Positions 27,130 through 38,973 of a DNA stretch of 64,000 bases are shown here, piece after piece. The stretch is from Alistipes indistinctus YIT 12060. Lineage in GTDB: Bacteria; Bacteroidota; Bacteroidia; Bacteroidales; Rikenellaceae. Numbering within the stretch: position 1 is the first letter of the stretch; each line of letters opens with the position of its first letter. Under the pieces are notes generated by a model. It saw only the letters and a program-made list of their open reading frames with translations. It was not told where the DNA came from and did no database searches. The translations under genes and the position numbers were made by a program. The DNA is taken from assembly GCF_025144995.1 (NCBI RefSeq), contig NZ_CP102250.1, forward strand, positions 186,001 through 250,000, read 5' to 3'.

Positions 27130-28236
27130 TTATTTCGCGAGGTGTCGGTTGACATCCAGTGCTTTTTGTGCAAGGTCGCTGAGGATGGTAACCTCTATCC
27201 CGGCTTGCCGTAAAACTGCTTCCCCGAGGCAGGTGACGAAGGTCGGCGGTTCGTATGCGGCGAACACAACCCGTTTCATGCGGTGGAGGATGATCAGTTC
27301 GGAGCAGGAGGCCGGTTTGGACTTCCGTGTAGTACAGGGCTCCATGCTGGAATAGACAGTTGCTCCGGTGAGCCGGCTGCCGGCCCGAATGGCTTTGAGG
27401 ATGGCCTCTTCCTCTGCATGGTTGGTCGGGGCGGTTTCCCGGCTGTACCCGGTGAATACCTGCCCGTCTTCGGTTACGATTACGGCCCCTACCGAATAAG
27501 CGCCTTTCGACGGCGGGCACTGAGCGGCCAGTGTAATGGCCTGTTCCATGCGGGCATAATCTTCAGCGGAAGCTTTCAGCGCATAAATGGCAACGGACAT
27601 ATCCCCTACCGCCTGGGTGCTGAGCAGGTGCATCCGCCGATCTTTGTTGTGAGGGAACCTTCCTGCATGTACGAAACGTGGGGCGTGTGAGTCGCCGACA
27701 AAAAAAGGAGCCGTAGCCATACGCAAATAATCGATCGCATCTGCGGTGAGAAATTGGGTCAGGATACGGGTACCCCCTTCGATAAACAGCGTACGGATAC
27801 CCTCTTGCGAGAGAAGCTGCAGGATCGTTTCCGGGGTAATCGGGTCTGTTTTAGCGACGATTACCGTGGCGACGCGCCGTAATGCTGCCAAATGTTCCGG
27901 TGATGCTCCCGTTCCGACGATTACGATCTTTCGGCCCGTCCCTTCTGTGAAAAACCGGGCTTGCGGATCGAGCCGTCCACTCGCGCTGACAGTCACTTTG
28001 ACAGGGTCGGCAGGCTTGCCTTGCGCCGTACGTTTTTCGCGCAGTTTTTCACTGCGGGTGACCAATGCCGGATTGTCTTTGCGGATGGTCTCCGCACCCA
28101 CCAGCACCGCGTCGCATTCGGCCCGCAAAGCGCGGACCTGTTCCCAATCTTTTGTGCCAGAAAGCACAAGACGCCGGGAAGTGGTGTCGTCTATATATCC
28201 GTCGAGCGAGACGGCTGCCGAGGCCCATACGATCAT
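27130..28236 (-). CDS. Fused RibD-type reductase and cytidine-deaminase-like domain, reversed order
   Basis: A 368-residue two-domain protein. The N-terminal part (about 1-215) is a RibD_C/DHFR-like reductase (SLDGYIDD, VLVGAETIRKDNPALVTR, IEGGTRILTQFL). The C-terminal part (about 225-368) is a zinc deaminase: His273-x-Glu275 in HAEEEAI and Cys301-x9-Cys311 in PCTTRKSKPASC. Bifunctional RibD has the deaminase first, so the order is swapped. It probably acts on a pyrimidine ribosyl-phosphate as in riboflavin synthesis or on a related nucleoside, but this is inference. I use ATG 28236; the upstream codon at 28275 overlaps the -7 promoter box. Confidence 0.85.
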   Translation of the reverse strand: MIVWASAAVSLDGYIDDTTSRRLVLSGTKDWEQVRALRAECDAVLVGAETIRKDNPALVTRSEKLREKRTAQGKPADPVKVTVSASGRLDPQARFFTEGTGRKIVIVGTGASPEHLAALRRVATVIVAKTDPITPETILQLLSQEGIRTLFIEGGTRILTQFLTADAIDYLRMATAPFFVGDSHAPRFVHAGRFPHNKDRRMHLLSTQAVGDMSVAIYALKASAEDYARMEQAITLAAQCPPSKGAYSVGAVIVTEDGQVFTGYSRETAPTNHAEEEAILKAIRAGSRLTGATVYSSMEPCTTRKSKPASCSELIILHRMKRVVFAAYEPPTFVTCLGEAVLRQAGIEVTILSDLAQKALDVNRHLAK

Positions 28237-28265
28237 AGCCGGAAAAGTAGATCTGTTATACAAAA

Positions 28266-28297
28266 CAAAGATCATTTAAATTTTTCTAAATCACAAA
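28266..28297 (-). promoter_or_regulatory. Promoter of the reductase-deaminase gene
   Basis: Minus-strand TTTG (28297-28294), a 20-base spacer and GATCTTTG (28273-28266). The -33 box is supplied by the palindrome at 28292-28303, and the -7 box has one mismatch. Confidence 0.5.
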
Positions 28298-31192: not shown

Positions 31193-31227
31193 GAAGCGGG
31201 GCGCCATTAGGCGCCCCGCTTCTTTTT
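31193..31227. terminator. Strong terminator between convergent genes
   Basis: GAAGCGGGGCGCC (31193-31205) and its exact complement (31210-31222) form a 13-bp GC-rich stem with a 4-base loop and a T-run. It serves the NigD-like gene and could also stop read-through from the giant gene on the other strand. Confidence 0.9.
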
Positions 31228-31254: not shown

Positions 31255-34200
31255 TTATTTGCGCTTCGGACCCGGTTTGGTTACTGTTTTGAGTGCTGTT
31301 TTATCGTTCTCCGGTTTGGCTGCCGCCGGTTCGCTTCCCTGTTTTTTGAGCGAATTCAGGTACTGCACTACTGCATATTTGGCAGCTGCGATCGTTTCCC
31401 GGTTTACCTTCTCGATTACGCTCCCCCGGGCCAGGTCGTCGCTGCTGATGTAGCCTTCGAGCATCAATAACTGTACGATCATATTGTTGATGTTCGTCTC
31501 TTCGCTGTAGCCTTCGGCGATGTAAAGTGTCGGTACTTTGGCCGCAAACTCCTCTGCGAAATCGGGATAGTTCGGAAAACTCATCAATTCCTCGAATGTT
31601 TCCCCGAAGCTCGTCAGTTCGATGTTCAGGTTGGGATTTACCAACAGCGGACTGAATTCGTGATTCGGGTCGGACGGATGGAAATTGACAAGGTTGGTGA
31701 TGTCCACCTTTTTGGACTTGTTGTCCATCCGGCGCAAATCGGCTTTACGCATGTTGTCGAGCTGGTAGAGGTAGAAGTTGTAGCGCCACAACTCGGAGCT
31801 GTTCATCTCTCCGTGGAAAAGATGTCGGTACTTTTCATTCAGCAACCGTTTTACCTTGATCTTGCCTTCGTTGATTTCGGGTTTGTTCACACGGACTTCC
31901 TGAATCAGTTGTTTGAGTGCGGCCGCCGCCTTCTGCGGGCCCGTGATTTCGCGGCCTTTCTTGCCGATTTCGGTTGACAGTACGCCGCACTGGATGTGGC
32001 GTGCCCCACCCTTGCCGTCTTTGCCGCCGCGCAGACAGGTGATAAGATTGTGAATACATTCTACCTGTCCCTCTTCCGAGATGAACGGCTGGCCGCCCGG
32101 CGTACTGGCCAGTGCATCGAATATCGCGCTGAACATTTTGCGGTCGATCTGTTTTTCATCGGTCAGCCTGTCATCGCCGAACCGGTACGAAACCGTTGCG
32201 ATGAAGCGGTTCTGGATCATGTCGAATGCCACATTTTCGATCGTGTAGGCTACCCCATCCCGGGTAAACGACCTGCCTGCGAAGATCATTTTCACCACTT
32301 CGGTGATATCTATCTTGTCGAGCAGTTTGAATGACGAAGCGAGGTAGTATTGTTGGTCGGCGGGAGAGAAATCCCAGTCGAGAATGTCGTCCAGGTAGTT
32401 GCCGTGACGTGAGATCACCTCGACGATATTCTTGTCGGCCGTGTAGCGTTTGAGCGTGCACTGGAAGTTCGGGCCGTCTCCGCTGGTTGCTTTCTCCTTG
32501 CGTTCACCGTGTGCATCGATATAGAGCAGAAAGTTTTCCGGATTGTCGATCCGTGTAATGCCGCCTTCGTTTTTCGAATAGTTACTGGCCGACAGCATGA
32601 TATCCACCTTGTAAGGCATCGTGATGTCGCACATGCCGCTCACGGTACTGCGGGCGTTGCGGTCGTCCACGTTGCTGTCCGCACTGCTTTCGAACAGGTA
32701 CTTGTAGTATTTGATATAGTCGGGATCGAAATCGGTCGTACGCGAGAAATCGCCCACTTCGGTACCGATGCCGTAAAGATTTCCGTCGGCGTCCTGGAAC
32801 TCGTGGAACATGTCGCCGGCGACCATCTTCACCGAGCGGATGCCTTCGAGATTGTTGCGCAGCCATTTGAGGACAAAGGCGGCGATCATTTCGCTCTTGC
32901 CTACCCCGCTGTCGCCGTTGATCTCGATTACGAAGACGCTGCCGTCGTTCTCTTCGACCATAAACAGCGATCCGTGGCGCGGCGTGCCACCCATCTCTTT
33001 CACCTTTTCGTTGATGACCGTCAGGCGCGGTTTTTTTACGTCGCCGAAATAATCGGCTTCCGACTTGAGCGGCGTGACGATCGTCTTGATGTTGCCTGCG
33101 GGACCTTTGATGTCGAAGTAACCGATCTGCGGGAATGAAATCAGTTTTTCCGGGGCGCCGAGCAGCGAAATGACGTCCGGCACGAAATTACGGATGTCCT
33201 GCAGGCTGATGTCTTCCGTATAATTGAGCCGGTAGTTGTCGGTCAGGTATTTCAGGTAACCCTTCTGGAAGATGACCAGCTCCTTGACAATGCCGTGCTT
33301 AACCACCTTGCAACGGTAGTCGTCCGAGTCCATGTTCGCGACGAAACGTGCGAGGCGGTGTACGAAGAACGACGGATCGGGCCGCAAGTCGATGTAGCGG
33401 ATGTATTCGGCCGGATAATCGGAAGGAATCTCCCCATCAGGCTTTTTGCTTTCCACCCGGTCGATCTTGTGGAACGGATATTCGCGTTTTTTTGCGTCGG
33501 TAACGATCCGCGTGTGTTCCTGTACGGGCTGTTCCGACGAGATTACGCCGCACTTGGTCATCAGTTCGTTAATCCAGTTGATACGGCCTCCGGCGAAGGT
33601 TTCGAGCGACTTGTTTTCCATTTCGAAACCTTTGTAAATCGAAATGCCGTGTTGTACCATTTCGTTTACGCTGGAATTTTGCTTCTTGAATGCCGTTTCG
33701 ACGATCCGTACGATCGTATGCGCATAACGGTTGTAATAGTCCGTACCCCGGGTGCGCTTGATCAGGCTGATGTAGAATCGCACGACGCGGCGGCTGACCG
33801 CATAGATTTCGCTTTCTGCGATCTTGATGTCTTTCTTGCGCATGATGTAGTTACTCAGTTCCTGCAACTGCATCGGCATGATGCTCGAAACGAACTCTTC
33901 GGTGAGCATCCTCACTTCCGTGTCGTCGCAGTCGCTGATGCGCTTGTCGAAATAGGCCAGTTTGTCGCAGACCATCTTGTAGAAAGACTTGTCGTTTTCG
34001 AGTAGGTACAGGTAGAGTATCTTGTCCGTGATTTCGGCTGCCCGGTCCACTCCTGTGCGCAGTACGTCTTCGATATAGCCGATGCTTTTTTGCGAGATGG
34101 TGAGGTTGCGGAACTCTTCTTTGTCACGCAGCGTGCGCATGAATTCGTCGATCCAGATATTCAGGTTCAACTGTAAAAGCTTGATACCGGTGATCTCTTC

Positions 34201-37200
34201 GAAGCATGCGCCGGCCATCTGGATAATTTCGCGGCGGCTAGGTTCGAGACTCTCCTTCTCGAACGGCAGGTTGAAGTGCAGCAAGATCTCCCGGATATAC
34301 TTTTTGATGATCGAGTTCAATCCTTCGAGCTTTGCCTTGTCGAGTTCGGGACTGCCCGTTGCGTTGATAGCCAGGATTTTCATTTTGCTGTCCGAGAAGA
34401 GCAAGTTCTCCATCTCGATCAGGATCTCCATCATTACACTCTTCTCCTCGGGGTTGTCGAGTACGTGGTGGTTCGGCTGGAAAGTCCGTTTGTTGGTAAT
34501 GTATTTCAGGATGACCGCTTTGCTGTATTTCGAACTGACCGTGTTGAAATCCAGGTCGGCCAGCGCCGGAACACGTTTGTAAACCTGTGCGAGCAGGTTT
34601 TCATAGATTTTGGTGAATGCCGAACTGCGGACGAATTCGAAAACGTCTTTGCAGGTGCCGACGATATCGCCGTGCAGCTCGATCACCGAGTTGGCCGACC
34701 TTCCGATTGTAGTGATCGTTACGCCGCTTTTTTCGGGAGAGGCGTGGTACAGCGAGCGTACGTCGCGGATTTGCAGCGACGGCGCTTTGTCTTTCTTGTA
34801 TTTCGCTGAAAGCGGATAATCCGCAATGATGCTCTCGATGAAATCTTTGTCTTTCGGATAGCGGAACATCTCATTCAGCAGGGCGCTGCTTTCACGCTCT
34901 TTGTTCGCCGAATCGGCACGCATGGCGGCAAATTGGTTCCAATACCGGATGAAGATCGAAAAGGCATCTTCCAATTCGGCCCCGAGAACTTTCAACCCCT
35001 CTTTCGATGCCGAGGTATAGCCGCCCAAAGAGAAGCGTACGAGTCCTGTCGGATACGGTACGGTGGCTACGCCTTTGTTCCGGGCCAGCATCTGGCAGAA
35101 CAGCAGCAGGTCGGGGTACGAATAGGGACCGGTGATCTTGAAGTTGAACAGGTAGGAACCGTCCGATTGGATGACTCGTAGTGCTGTCCCCGCCGGACTG
35201 TTGTCAAGCAGGCGCTGTCCGATCTCTTTGGCCATCTTCATACGCGTGAGCGATTCGTGGCGAAAGTTCTTGTTCACCCGGAAACGGTTCAGGTTTTCCA
35301 CCAACTTGCTTTGGTAGTAGACGAAAAACGGTTCGTCGTGGTATTTGAAATCGTCCGGCAGTCCCAGTACGTCTAGCTTGTCCAGGGCTACCAGTTCGTC
35401 GAGCAGGAACAGGTAGAGCGGCGACCCCTCGAAGCCGGCCGTTTTGTGCAACTGGCGGTTGGTTTTGCTGATCTCGTTGTTTTGCTGGGTCTTTTCGAAT
35501 TGGCTGACGATAAATTTGACGATCGCCTTTTTGATTTTCGAACGCGAAGCGTTTTTCGGCAGTTCGGCTTCGATCTGGTCTTTGATGCGCTTGGCTACCT
35601 GGGCGATCTCGAGCGTATTGTTGAGCATCAGCAACGAGTTGTTGTTGCCGTGTTCGGCGCTGTTGCAGGCCCGTGCGTATTTTGCGAAGTCCGTTGCCTG
35701 GGGAGTGACGGCTACGGCGCCGAGGCGTTCGCCCGTGGCGGCGAGGTTCTTCGTGGTCGAAAGCGACGAAATGGCCTTGATACGCGACTGCGCGTTAATG
35801 TTGTTCATGATGTAGCGAGAAAGCGTACGCCATTTTGGCAACTCGCGGTCTTCGATCTTGACGCTCTCTGCGTATGCTTCGTCGAGGAACAGCGTGATTT
35901 TGCAACTGTTCAGGAAACGCAGAAAGTTGTTGGCCGCCTCGCTGTTGAAATCGGTATAACCCGTGGGATTGTTCGGGTCGTTGACGATGATCGTCGTATT
36001 TTCGCAGAAAAGGTCCCACAGGCTGCCGCTGTCGTCGAATAATGCCAAGGTCGATTTGATCCGTTGCAACCGGTCGATCAGGCGGTCGTAGGCAAGCCTG
36101 CCTTCGTTGTCGTTCTCGATTTCGATGTCGAACGGATTGATGTCGAAACAGTCGTCCGGCAGCAGGTCTTTGTACTCCCAGGCCTGGATCGCATTGTAAA
36201 TGATATAGGGCTTCGGCCGGCCGTTCGGGTTGAACAGCAGGTCGCGGATGATCATCTGTACGGCATCCGATACCGAGGTCTGGTCGAGGTTGCCTAACGC
36301 GGCGAGGAAATTTTTGACGATCTCCTTGTCCTCTTCTTTGAGCGCGAAGTATTTGTCGCGGATGCCCAGGTCGATCAGGAACTTCTCGAAGCGCCCCTTG
36401 TTGTCGGCATCTTTGCCCGTTTTGGTTAGGTATTCCTGGTATTTCTCAAGGAACAGGTTGATGCCGAAATTCTTATGGAAATGATTGTGCAGCGTCCGCT
36501 CGTAGCAGCTCGGAATGATGTCGAGGATCAGCTGGCATGCATAGCGGATTTTGCTGTTCAGGTTGTTGAACGTTTTACTGCGCAGGTAGTCCCCGAAAGT
36601 CTTGATTTGGTGACGGCCACCGCCTTCGAGGATCGTTATGACGTCGATGAGTTTGTTGCCCGCATAGAAATAATTTTTCATGCGGCTTTCGAACTCGTCG
36701 ATCAGCTCCTGGGTCTGTACCTTCTTGGTTTCCTGTTTGTGGCAGTTCTCAAGGAAGAAGATAAAGTCGCGCAGCTTTTCGAGCGAGTATTTATCCTGTA
36801 CGACCTGCCGCGAGAAAGAGTCGAGTTTGAAGAGTGTGATCCGTTTCTCGATATCGTTCGGATCGCCCGTCTGTTCGTTGAGCAGCGTTTCGAGTTCGGC
36901 GGCGTACTCTCCGATCTGGGCTTCTATCTTTTCTCGGAACTCCTTGAGATAGGTCGGGTTGACATTTTCCAGGATCAGGCGCAGGTTCAGCTGTGTATTC
37001 GACGGCGAGCCGAGTTTTTTGGTGTGTACTTTGTTGAGCGTATTGATAATGCCGTTGTGGAAACAGAAGATCAGCGAGGTATTCGAGCTGCGCGACTCTT
37101 TCGAGTCGTCCACGATCACCAATCGCGTCAGCAGCGGGAACCATTTTTCACCGGCATAATGGTTGATGCGGGCGTGCTTTACCTTGACGACGAATACCGA

Positions 37201-37992
37201 AGTGGTGTCGGCCGTCATCTTTTCGTAGAGCAGTTCCGGGGCGGGCGATTCCATTACCACGACGCAGTCCTTGCTGAATACGTCGCCGCGCAGCAGGGAG
37301 ACGGCTTTGTCGGCGTTCCCGGACACGACTGTACGGATCATGCCGTTCATCCCTTTGAAATTCACGGCCCACTTGCTGCGGTGCAGGAAGTCGCAAATTT
37401 CGGCTTTTGTCGTGTAATGGGTGCTTTGGCTGATCATCTGTTCGAGCGTGTCCATCAGGTAGTTCCAGTGCGCTTCGTTGATGTCGCCCGTTACGCCGAT
37501 CACGTCGCGGTATTTGCGTAGGTCGCGAACGTGCCCGCCTAACTGGATTTGCGACATGAAGTCGATGTGATAACTGTTGATCGGCGGCGTGCCGACCGAA
37601 AGGTCATGGCTGTCGCGGATATTGATCAGGACATTTTTGATTTCGGTAGTCGTCCCGTCGGTATCGAGCACCGAATTGATCTTTTTGACGAATTCTCCGC
37701 GTTTGCTGCTCAGTTCGAATGCTTTCGAGTTGTTGTGAGGGATCAGCATCAGCGACACATCGGTATAACCGGGGATATCCTCGCGGAATTTGAGCAGGTA
37801 ACGGTTGATCTCGGCCTGTTGGCGGGCCGGATCGTCGGGCTCTTCCATACAGAGGCTGACGAAGCTGGTCAGATTATCGAAGATGTGGCGCGGCAGGAAG
37901 ATTTCGGCCCGCTCGCCCAACGATTCGTACAGGTTCAGCAGCTGGAGAGCCTCGTTGCTCAGGAATGCTTTCGGTTCGCCTACGATTTTCAT
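31255..37992 (-). CDS. Giant protein with aminotransferase-fold and PEPCK/HPr-kinase-like P-loop domains
   Basis: A 2245-residue uninterrupted cytoplasmic protein with no signal peptide. Three regions can be recognised. Residues about 580-1010 read as a fold-type-I PLP aminotransferase: NDPNNPTG (671-678), LDEAY (Asp704, Tyr707), SLSTTKNLAATGERLG with the Schiff-base Lys748, and LVRFSLGG with Arg986. Residues about 1640-2080 read as a PEP carboxykinase/HPr kinase-like domain: EINGDSGVGKSE with Lys1699, VAGDMFHEF, then VDIMLSASNYSKNEGG and a KKGREITGPQKAA segment. The flanks (1-580 and 1010-1640) are mostly helical and unrecognised, and the C-terminus is a basic Pro/Lys tail. Each enzyme core looks intact, so bifunctional catalysis is possible. 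No pathway partner lies next to it. The overall function is unknown. Confidence 0.85.
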   Translation of the reverse strand: MKIVGEPKAFLSNEALQLLNLYESLGERAEIFLPRHIFDNLTSFVSLCMEEPDDPARQQAEINRYLLKFREDIPGYTDVSLMLIPHNNSKAFELSSKRGEFVKKINSVLDTDGTTTEIKNVLINIRDSHDLSVGTPPINSYHIDFMSQIQLGGHVRDLRKYRDVIGVTGDINEAHWNYLMDTLEQMISQSTHYTTKAEICDFLHRSKWAVNFKGMNGMIRTVVSGNADKAVSLLRGDVFSKDCVVVMESPAPELLYEKMTADTTSVFVVKVKHARINHYAGEKWFPLLTRLVIVDDSKESRSSNTSLIFCFHNGIINTLNKVHTKKLGSPSNTQLNLRLILENVNPTYLKEFREKIEAQIGEYAAELETLLNEQTGDPNDIEKRITLFKLDSFSRQVVQDKYSLEKLRDFIFFLENCHKQETKKVQTQELIDEFESRMKNYFYAGNKLIDVITILEGGGRHQIKTFGDYLRSKTFNNLNSKIRYACQLILDIIPSCYERTLHNHFHKNFGINLFLEKYQEYLTKTGKDADNKGRFEKFLIDLGIRDKYFALKEEDKEIVKNFLAALGNLDQTSVSDAVQMIIRDLLFNPNGRPKPYIIYNAIQAWEYKDLLPDDCFDINPFDIEIENDNEGRLAYDRLIDRLQRIKSTLALFDDSGSLWDLFCENTTIIVNDPNNPTGYTDFNSEAANNFLRFLNSCKITLFLDEAYAESVKIEDRELPKWRTLSRYIMNNINAQSRIKAISSLSTTKNLAATGERLGAVAVTPQATDFAKYARACNSAEHGNNNSLLMLNNTLEIAQVAKRIKDQIEAELPKNASRSKIKKAIVKFIVSQFEKTQQNNEISKTNRQLHKTAGFEGSPLYLFLLDELVALDKLDVLGLPDDFKYHDEPFFVYYQSKLVENLNRFRVNKNFRHESLTRMKMAKEIGQRLLDNSPAGTALRVIQSDGSYLFNFKITGPYSYPDLLLFCQMLARNKGVATVPYPTGLVRFSLGGYTSASKEGLKVLGAELEDAFSIFIRYWNQFAAMRADSANKERESSALLNEMFRYPKDKDFIESIIADYPLSAKYKKDKAPSLQIRDVRSLYHASPEKSGVTITTIGRSANSVIELHGDIVGTCKDVFEFVRSSAFTKIYENLLAQVYKRVPALADLDFNTVSSKYSKAVILKYITNKRTFQPNHHVLDNPEEKSVMMEILIEMENLLFSDSKMKILAINATGSPELDKAKLEGLNSIIKKYIREILLHFNLPFEKESLEPSRREIIQMAGACFEEITGIKLLQLNLNIWIDEFMRTLRDKEEFRNLTISQKSIGYIEDVLRTGVDRAAEITDKILYLYLLENDKSFYKMVCDKLAYFDKRISDCDDTEVRMLTEEFVSSIMPMQLQELSNYIMRKKDIKIAESEIYAVSRRVVRFYISLIKRTRGTDYYNRYAHTIVRIVETAFKKQNSSVNEMVQHGISIYKGFEMENKSLETFAGGRINWINELMTKCGVISSEQPVQEHTRIVTDAKKREYPFHKIDRVESKKPDGEIPSDYPAEYIRYIDLRPDPSFFVHRLARFVANMDSDDYRCKVVKHGIVKELVIFQKGYLKYLTDNYRLNYTEDISLQDIRNFVPDVISLLGAPEKLISFPQIGYFDIKGPAGNIKTIVTPLKSEADYFGDVKKPRLTVINEKVKEMGGTPRHGSLFMVEENDGSVFVIEINGDSGVGKSEMIAAFVLKWLRNNLEGIRSVKMVAGDMFHEFQDADGNLYGIGTEVGDFSRTTDFDPDYIKYYKYLFESSADSNVDDRNARSTVSGMCDITMPYKVDIMLSASNYSKNEGGITRIDNPENFLLYIDAHGERKEKATSGDGPNFQCTLKRYTADKNIVEVISRHGNYLDDILDWDFSPADQQYYLASSFKLLDKIDITEVVKMIFAGRSFTRDGVAYTIENVAFDMIQNRFIATVSYRFGDDRLTDEKQIDRKMFSAIFDALASTPGGQPFISEEGQVECIHNLITCLRGGKDGKGGARHIQCGVLSTEIGKKGREITGPQKAAAALKQLIQEVRVNKPEINEGKIKVKRLLNEKYRHLFHGEMNSSELWRYNFYLYQLDNMRKADLRRMDNKSKKVDITNLVNFHPSDPNHEFSPLLVNPNLNIELTSFGETFEELMSFPNYPDFAEEFAAKVPTLYIAEGYSEETNINNMIVQLLMLEGYISSDDLARGSVIEKVNRETIAAAKYAVVQYLNSLKKQGSEPAAAKPENDKTALKTVTKPGPKRK

Positions 37993-38050: not shown

Positions 38051-38058
38051 CAAATATA
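38051..38058 (-). promoter_or_regulatory. -7 promoter element of the giant gene
   Basis: Minus-strand TATATTTG matches TAnnTTTG exactly and gives a leader of roughly 55 bases. No TTTG lies at the expected -33 position (a T6 run is nearby). Confidence 0.55.
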
Positions 38059-38942: not shown

Positions 38943-38973
38943 AAAAGAAGGCCGGAATTCCGGCCTTCTTTTT
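38943..38973. terminator. Bidirectional terminator between lipoprotein and RND operon
   Basis: Bases 38943-38972 form a perfect 30-bp palindrome (arm AAAAGAAGGCCGGAA) ending in Ts on both strands. It separates the plus-strand lipoprotein gene from the convergent efflux operon. Confidence 0.88.

Follow-up and report, generated by a model that had tools for sequence, protein, structure and literature searches.

A conserved Bacteroidota protein of 2,245 residues combining an aminotransferase core with a divergent PEPCK/HPrK-superfamily P-loop domain

The described systems closest to the protein reported here are class I/II aminotransferases, phosphoenolpyruvate carboxykinase (PEPCK) and HPr kinase/phosphorylase (HPrK). 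In aspartate aminotransferase the pyridoxal phosphate (PLP) lysine and the C-terminal arginine form a pair spanning positions 258 to 386, and the aminotransferase fold has a precedent as a sensor in regulators of the GabR/PdxR type. Arg65 is the substrate arginine of PEPCK, and an HG motif followed by a GxxGxGKSE P-loop is the signature of HPrK-type proteins. The phosphoenolpyruvate (PEP)/oxaloacetate node is where fermenters of the kind considered below fix CO2. Both kinds of core are known, but a fusion of the two with about 1,090 further residues and a mixed PEPCK/HPrK site was not described in the literature searched, at the level of titles and the opening parts of abstracts. A study of how canonical PEPCK is expressed in Bacteroidetes mentions neither Alistipes nor Odoribacter (PMC11204068).

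The gene lies in a 64,000-nucleotide stretch of Alistipes indistinctus YIT 12060 (the window; positions 186,001 to 250,000 of NZ_CP102250.1), within a 2.86-Mb single-contig genome that holds one match to the protein. An earlier note, made from the sequence, had described one continuous 2,245-residue frame; this is present on the minus strand and conserved at full length in relatives, and the motif positions then listed (NDPNNPTG at 671-678, K748, R986, GDSGVGKSE at 1693-1701 and K1699) were correct when the numbering was checked. In window coordinates, the gene and its regions are as follows.

31255..37992, minus strand: complete gene, two-core protein of 2,245 residues from an ATG, supported by the open reading frame, homologues and dN/dS
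36553..37992, minus strand: N-terminal region, residues 1-480, conserved
34858..36555, minus strand: aminotransferase region, residues ~480-1045, fold type I, class I/II, with an inferred start
33643..34857, minus strand: middle region, residues 1046-1450, largely helical
31873..33642, minus strand: PEPCK-like region, residues ~1451-2040, its core (1554-1838) common to a stand-alone family of ~580 residues
31258..31872, minus strand: C-terminal region, residues 2041-2245, conserved to ~2210 and followed by a variable tail

Residues 1-480, 1046-1450 and 2041-2245 gave no Pfam match above cut-off, with the C-terminal part covered within the whole-protein scan; at about 1,090 residues they come near the roughly 1,200 that had been called unrecognised. 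In the AlphaFold2 model the N-terminal region consists predominantly of helices, apart from an alpha/beta stretch at ~218-327. The protein is probably cytosolic. DUF4125 was considered for the middle region and rejected (11 of 38 members at E ≤0.1, best 1.1e-4; 21.2 bits for the protein itself against a cut-off of 25). A role as a defence system was likewise rejected, the only PADLOC match being DpdH at E 0.051, and the model of the N-terminal half found nothing at E 0.001 or better in a viral structure library.

A homology survey recovered full-length colinear homologues in several Bacteroidota families, 49-87% identical over the best segment; 61 of the 70 loci in this collection scan had matches that start at or before residue 5 and end at or after residue 2181. 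The fusion was matched in all nine sampled genomes of the genus (its own included) and in 23 of 37 from the family, with some of the matches in pieces on short contigs. Among 61 relatives searched, 28 matched, one by the kinase part only (G055) and one by a 97-residue fragment only (G053). Across the order at least 36 of 393 genomes matched, comprising 25 with the full or near-full protein, one with a C-terminal piece (G785) and ten with a stand-alone relative of the kinase part only; two first-look candidates were scored per genome, so these counts are lower bounds. An even sample of the phylum held the full protein in three of 392 genomes, including its own, with weak aminotransferase matches in two more. 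Phage records gave no match and plasmid records a single one, to a Limosilactobacillus fermentum relative of the kinase part.

Conservation extended over the whole chain, with 472 positions invariant among 39 representatives. Of 30 positions counted in 63 distinct sequences, 29 were invariant, the exception being T572 (62 T, 1 S). Whole-protein dN/dS was 0.056-0.127 in five pairs, figures that are rough because synonymous sites are near saturation. In a FastTree phylogeny of 49 sequences, Rikenellaceae, Marinilabiliaceae and Marinifilaceae each formed one well-supported group and Odoribacteraceae one group with low support, while two rows labelled Porphyromonadaceae were split; the labels Calditrichaceae and Chlorobiota belong to metagenome bins, which were placed beside or inside Bacteroidota groups. 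Together, the distribution, the conservation and a tree that largely follows taxonomy suggest that the gene is old and mostly vertically inherited, with losses. Since the join is kept intact in distant relatives, the fusion is real.

Two peculiarities were seen among the homologous loci. About 1.5 kb downstream of a full copy in a single-contig 4.4-Mb genome (G796), a 51-residue piece (L121 8838-8990) is 78% identical to residues 1456-1506 and looks like a partial duplication. Very long antisense frames lie opposite the gene at L010 (2965-9693, minus strand; 2243 codons to the locus end), L019, L040 and L067 (2644 codons), and these are probably an effect of codon usage rather than genes.

The aminotransferase core was recovered by sequence and by structure. 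Pfam Aminotran_1_2 (PF00155) matched at E 3.7e-10 (40 bits against a cut-off of 19.7) over residues 664-805 only, and hhalign against two ordinary Bacteroidota aminotransferases gave a probability of 96.8. Among solved structures, a protein-only sequence search found no match and a profile search found weak aminotransferase matches (best E 4.8e-4). An AlphaFold2 model of residues 1-1045, built from 50 sequences (pLDDT 81.6, pTM 0.80), matched PLP fold-type-I enzymes in all 50 Foldseek matches listed (best E 2.1e-6) and reached Z 15.3 in VIA (380 residues, rmsd 3.5 Å). The main active-site features are:

35959..35982, minus strand: NDPNNPTG, residues 671-678, identified by motif
35749..35751, minus strand: K748, the PLP lysine in SLSTTKNLAATGERLG, identified by motif and hhalign and kept in 63 of 63 sequences
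35035..35037, minus strand: R986, the position of the substrate-carboxylate arginine, identified by motif and kept in 63 of 63 sequences

By motif, N675, D704, Y707 and S745 match Asn194, Asp222, Tyr225 and Ser255 of aspartate aminotransferase, and K748, R756 and R986 match its Lys258, Arg266 and Arg386; all seven are conserved throughout the 63 distinct sequences. The core thus resembles class I/II aminotransferases in its fold and in all seven PLP- and substrate-contact positions checked; unlike them, it sits inside a 2,245-residue chain after some 480 residues with no assigned family. The stretch from the PLP lysine to the C-terminal arginine is also ~110 residues longer than usual. VIA rows disagree on the start of the domain (75, 143, 183 or 396, among others); those at 75, 143 and 183 are probably stray helices, and we placed the start near 480 because helices at 496-586 would suffice for the usual N-terminal part. 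A second, degenerate aminotransferase within residues 1-500 was not supported by sequence (hhalign against 500-1045, probability 0.1). NCBIfam matches below threshold are scattered over PLP enzymes of very different kinds, CobD (threonine-phosphate decarboxylase) and histidinol-phosphate transaminase among them, so that sequence does not fix the PLP chemistry.

The second core is more divergent. Its AlphaFold2 model (residues 1046-2230, 49 sequences) had a pLDDT of 72.7 and a pTM of 0.62, and model residues 704-825 (protein residues 1749-1870, inside the PEPCK-like domain) fell below a pLDDT of 50. All 50 Foldseek matches listed were PEPCK, the best at E 2.7e-3 with a probability of 1.00, and none reached E 0.001 or better. 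In VIA, PEPCK accounted for 47 of the 50 matches listed, with a best Z of 7.3 (291 residues, 4.7 Å, residues 1453-2038); this is in the middling range, where values below 8 can reflect a common arrangement, and two unrelated helical chains scored higher (Z 8.2 and 7.7) by matching model helices 230-344. Profile searches gave less, with no PEPCK (PF01293/PF00821) or HPrK (PF07475) model among the Pfam matches of the fusion up to E 1 and no PEPCK or HPrK model among its NCBIfam matches. Compared with the PEPCK of the same genome, hhalign gave a probability of 11.6 for the fusion and 30.7 for the stand-alone family, weak but colinear through YxGxxKK, the metal histidine, the P-loop and part of the N-terminal domain, while global alignments failed. 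Three elements mark the site:

33031..33051, minus strand: YFGDVKK, residues 1648-1654, counterpart of PEPCK YGGEMKK
32974..32976, minus strand: H1673, counterpart of the PEPCK metal histidine and of the histidine in the HPrK HG motif
32890..32916, minus strand: P-loop GDSGVGKSE, residues 1693-1701, a conserved motif

K1653, K1654 and H1673 represent Lys212/213 and the metal-binding His232 of PEPCK and are conserved in all 63 distinct sequences. The P-loop G, G, K, S and E that were checked are likewise kept in 63 of 63, and V1697 is nearly invariant. At the kinase-2 motif, one aspartate of two is kept (D1727; GDM versus DDM, in an alignment ambiguous by one residue), and no counterpart of Arg65 could be placed in the alignment with the genome's own PEPCK. 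The domain resembles PEPCK in its best whole-domain structural matches and in the order of YxGxxKK, histidine and P-loop, but differs in its loop (GDSGVGKSE, with GKSE for GKTT, rather than G-x-S-G-T-G-K-T-T), apparently in one kinase-2 aspartate, in having no Pfam match and in being fused to an aminotransferase. It resembles HPrK in H1673-G1674 followed by GDSGxGKSE at 1693-1701, yet PF07475 does not match the fusion. With the lysine pair and histidine of PEPCK but a loop of the HPrK type, we place it in the PEPCK/HPrK superfamily as a divergent member, outside both families.

The two-core reading of the earlier note, an aminotransferase core and a PEPCK/HPrK-superfamily P-loop domain on one conserved chain, is thus supported. 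Structure prediction, which it had named as a check, returned the aminotransferase fold clearly and the PEPCK fold more weakly, and the active-site residues checked are retained in all 63 distinct homologues. The functions it had suggested, a metabolic megasynthase or a sensor tying amino-acid state to phosphorylation, are both possible. Canonical PEPCK is present in the same genome, which rules out a replacement for a missing PEPCK there, and in 12 of the 14 further genomes with the fusion that were tested (all except G541 and G547).

Residues 1554-1838 are shared with a family of stand-alone proteins of ~580 residues (hhalign 99.6; BLASTP E 2e-21 for one member), and with this family as intermediate a sequence link from the fusion to PEPCK is supported. 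One member, AYP99509.1 of L. fermentum, annotated as phosphoenolpyruvate carboxykinase, matched PF01293 at E 2.1e-5 (23.9 against a cut-off of 26.5); two stand-alone relatives matched the HPrK model PF07475 only at E 0.053 and 0.13. The fusion shares most motifs of the family, including GDSGxGKSE preceded by HG. By contrast, the stand-alone proteins are unfused, have a different N-terminal region and DDM in place of GDM, and lack an insert that the fusion carries after residue ~1838. When the stand-alone profile was run against 345 genomes sampled evenly from the phylum, it picked up only the fusion itself, in two of them, and three weak places. None of the 36 matching genomes of the order held both proteins among the matches listed, although chance predicts about as few.

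Overall, nine of 13 stand-alone copies examined lie beside or near genes for PEP carboxylase, aldolase or other central-carbon enzymes. PEP carboxylase adjoins four (L096, L110, L112 and L113; Pfam-confirmed as the neighbour for L096 and confirmed in the genomes of the others), and an aldolase adjoins three (L097, a Pfam-confirmed DeoC/LacD type, with L114 and L115 named by likeness only). SucD lies two genes from the copy at L119, and a pyruvate/2-oxoacid:ferredoxin oxidoreductase subunit adjoins that at L120, both Pfam-confirmed; the remaining four (L111, L116, L117 and L118) have no central-carbon neighbour. A fifth PEP carboxylase pair, in G810, was recognized from coordinates alone, bringing the pairing to five of five genomes tested in family f20. 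PEP carboxylase is rare, being found in two of the 61 relatives (G055 and G038), and is missing in five of ten genomes with a stand-alone protein. PF01293 is missing in eight of these ten, versus eight of the 61 relatives and two of the 44 well-completed ones (G055 included), which is suggestive rather than a test because the eight genomes fall in three families (f20, f142 and f164). The stand-alone family is itself a candidate, either as a regulator or as a non-canonical carboxykinase.

The L. fermentum protein annotated as phosphoenolpyruvate carboxykinase is encoded on a plasmid (L135 5290-6999; CP033373.1 88508-90217). Judged by its PF01293 match just below the cut-off, that annotation may be over-confident.

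Two intact-looking active sites on one chain most simply suggest a bifunctional enzyme, and our tentative proposal, to which we give somewhat less than even weight, is an enzyme encoded by one gene that links transamination with phosphotransfer at the oxaloacetate/PEP node. Oxaloacetate is put forward because it is the one metabolite commonly handled by both enzyme types. The first core would exchange the amino group between an amino acid and a 2-oxo acid, with aspartate/oxaloacetate as the obvious candidate pair. The second would pass phosphate to or from a nucleotide, using that metabolite or a neighbouring one as partner, in the way PEPCK acts on oxaloacetate. Placing both on one chain might allow a labile intermediate, for example oxaloacetate, to be handed on or controlled, and the large conserved N-terminal and middle regions could keep the two sites close and provide the dimer interface required by aminotransferases. 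The sole functional lead is the set of stand-alone kinase relatives, several of which lie beside central-carbon enzymes. The HPrK-like P-loop, the single kinase-2 aspartate, the unplaced Arg65 counterpart, the weak profile and structural links, the lack of a Pfam match, the low-pLDDT stretch and the canonical PEPCK of the same genome all count against a bifunctional enzyme of the PEPCK type. A more specific form, in which a transaminase and a non-canonical, HPrK-like carboxykinase would link an amino acid directly to PEP, in either direction, via oxaloacetate, strikes us as quite improbable; it would imply a channelled link from nitrogen to carbon around PEP in gut and sediment Bacteroidota and an enzyme that belongs to a third branch of the PEPCK/HPrK superfamily.

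The same features can be read differently. A serious rival, though in our judgement rather unlikely, is a regulatory protein kinase/phosphatase of the HPrK type whose aminotransferase-fold half serves as an amino-acid sensor, with a ligand in the PLP site switching phosphorylation of a target. The HG-preceded GDSGxGKSE of both the fusion and the stand-alone family fits such a regulator, as does the placing of stand-alone paralogues next to PEP carboxylase in every f20 genome tested and next to an aldolase in three f20 genomes, since paralogues beside different enzymes would suit a dedicated kinase for each target better than an extra PEPCK. It has to contend with the PEPCK lysine pair and metal histidine retained in the fusion, with PEPCK as the best whole-domain structural match, with the half of the stand-alone genomes that lack PEP carboxylase and with a fusion beside which no partner gene is conserved. 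Slightly less likely still is biosynthesis of a phospho-amino compound outside central carbon, where the kinase would phosphorylate a hydroxy acid or amino acid and the PLP core would transaminate or decarboxylate the phospho-compound. The spread of NCBIfam matches, CobD and histidinol-phosphate transaminase among them, leaves room for such chemistry, but all these matches lie far below their cut-offs, and although the gene is patchy (23 of 37 genomes of the family; at least 26 of 393 of the order, one a fragment), no biosynthetic cluster is evident among its neighbours, a minority of which were scanned for families. We give next to no weight to the idea that an accident of annotation or assembly joined two ordinary proteins, a PEPCK and an aminotransferase; this reading draws on the presence of both folds and nothing beyond. 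The same full-length frame recurs across many genomes that were assembled independently, single-contig ones among them, it is under purifying selection and its tree largely follows taxonomy; the full-length homologues and dN/dS refute the accident.

The bearers, some of them in gut genera such as Alistipes and Odoribacter, spend 6.7 kb on two intact-looking sites and ~1,090 residues outside the cores, which are mostly conserved in a protein under purifying selection across families. If, as in the proposed bifunctional enzyme, the two sites share a metabolite, the protein would represent an undescribed link from amino-acid nitrogen to the PEP/oxaloacetate node; if instead the PEPCK-like domain is a regulator, HPrK-type control would extend to a new form. 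In either case, the fusion points to an uncharacterised family of PEPCK-like stand-alone proteins, in which one member carries the plain annotation PEP carboxykinase.

Around the gene lie an RND efflux operon, a small gene whose product has a lipoprotein-like start by eye and no Pfam match, and a convergent NigD-like gene. Three elements were noted in the flanks:

38943..38972, minus strand: terminator-like hairpin closing the upstream operon
38051..38058, minus strand: TATATTTG box, a possible but weak promoter element
31193..31222, plus strand: terminator-like hairpin lying between the 3' ends of the two genes and assigned to the convergent one

The gene had been credited with its own promoter and terminators, which holds in part. 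The upstream hairpin does close the preceding operon. The box has the sequence of the Bacteroidota -7 motif, but three such boxes occur in the window, where about one is expected by chance, no exact -33 partner was found for the one at 38058-38051, and a scan for sigma-70-type promoters gave three sites versus 3.2 expected. The downstream hairpin at 31193-31222 belongs to the convergent gene, because its T-run is on the plus strand.

We compared 46 locus sets, with the gene called in 45 and displaced in L067 by the long antisense frame. No conserved operon was found among them: apart from two large clusters (12 and 41), found immediately upstream in both L084 and L090, direct neighbours recur in small groups only, and the most widespread neighbour cluster, of 177-210 residues, occurs in 12 of the 46 sets at differing distances. 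The fusion thus seems to function independently of any fixed partner gene.

Elsewhere in the window, positions 27130-28275 of the minus strand encode a RibD-like riboflavin enzyme with permuted domains, the reductase (16-224) preceding the deaminase (240-339). Canonical RibD has the reverse order, deaminase then reductase. This gene is the sole RibD_C match found in the genome, and it has clustered homologues in L021, L030, L033 and L036.
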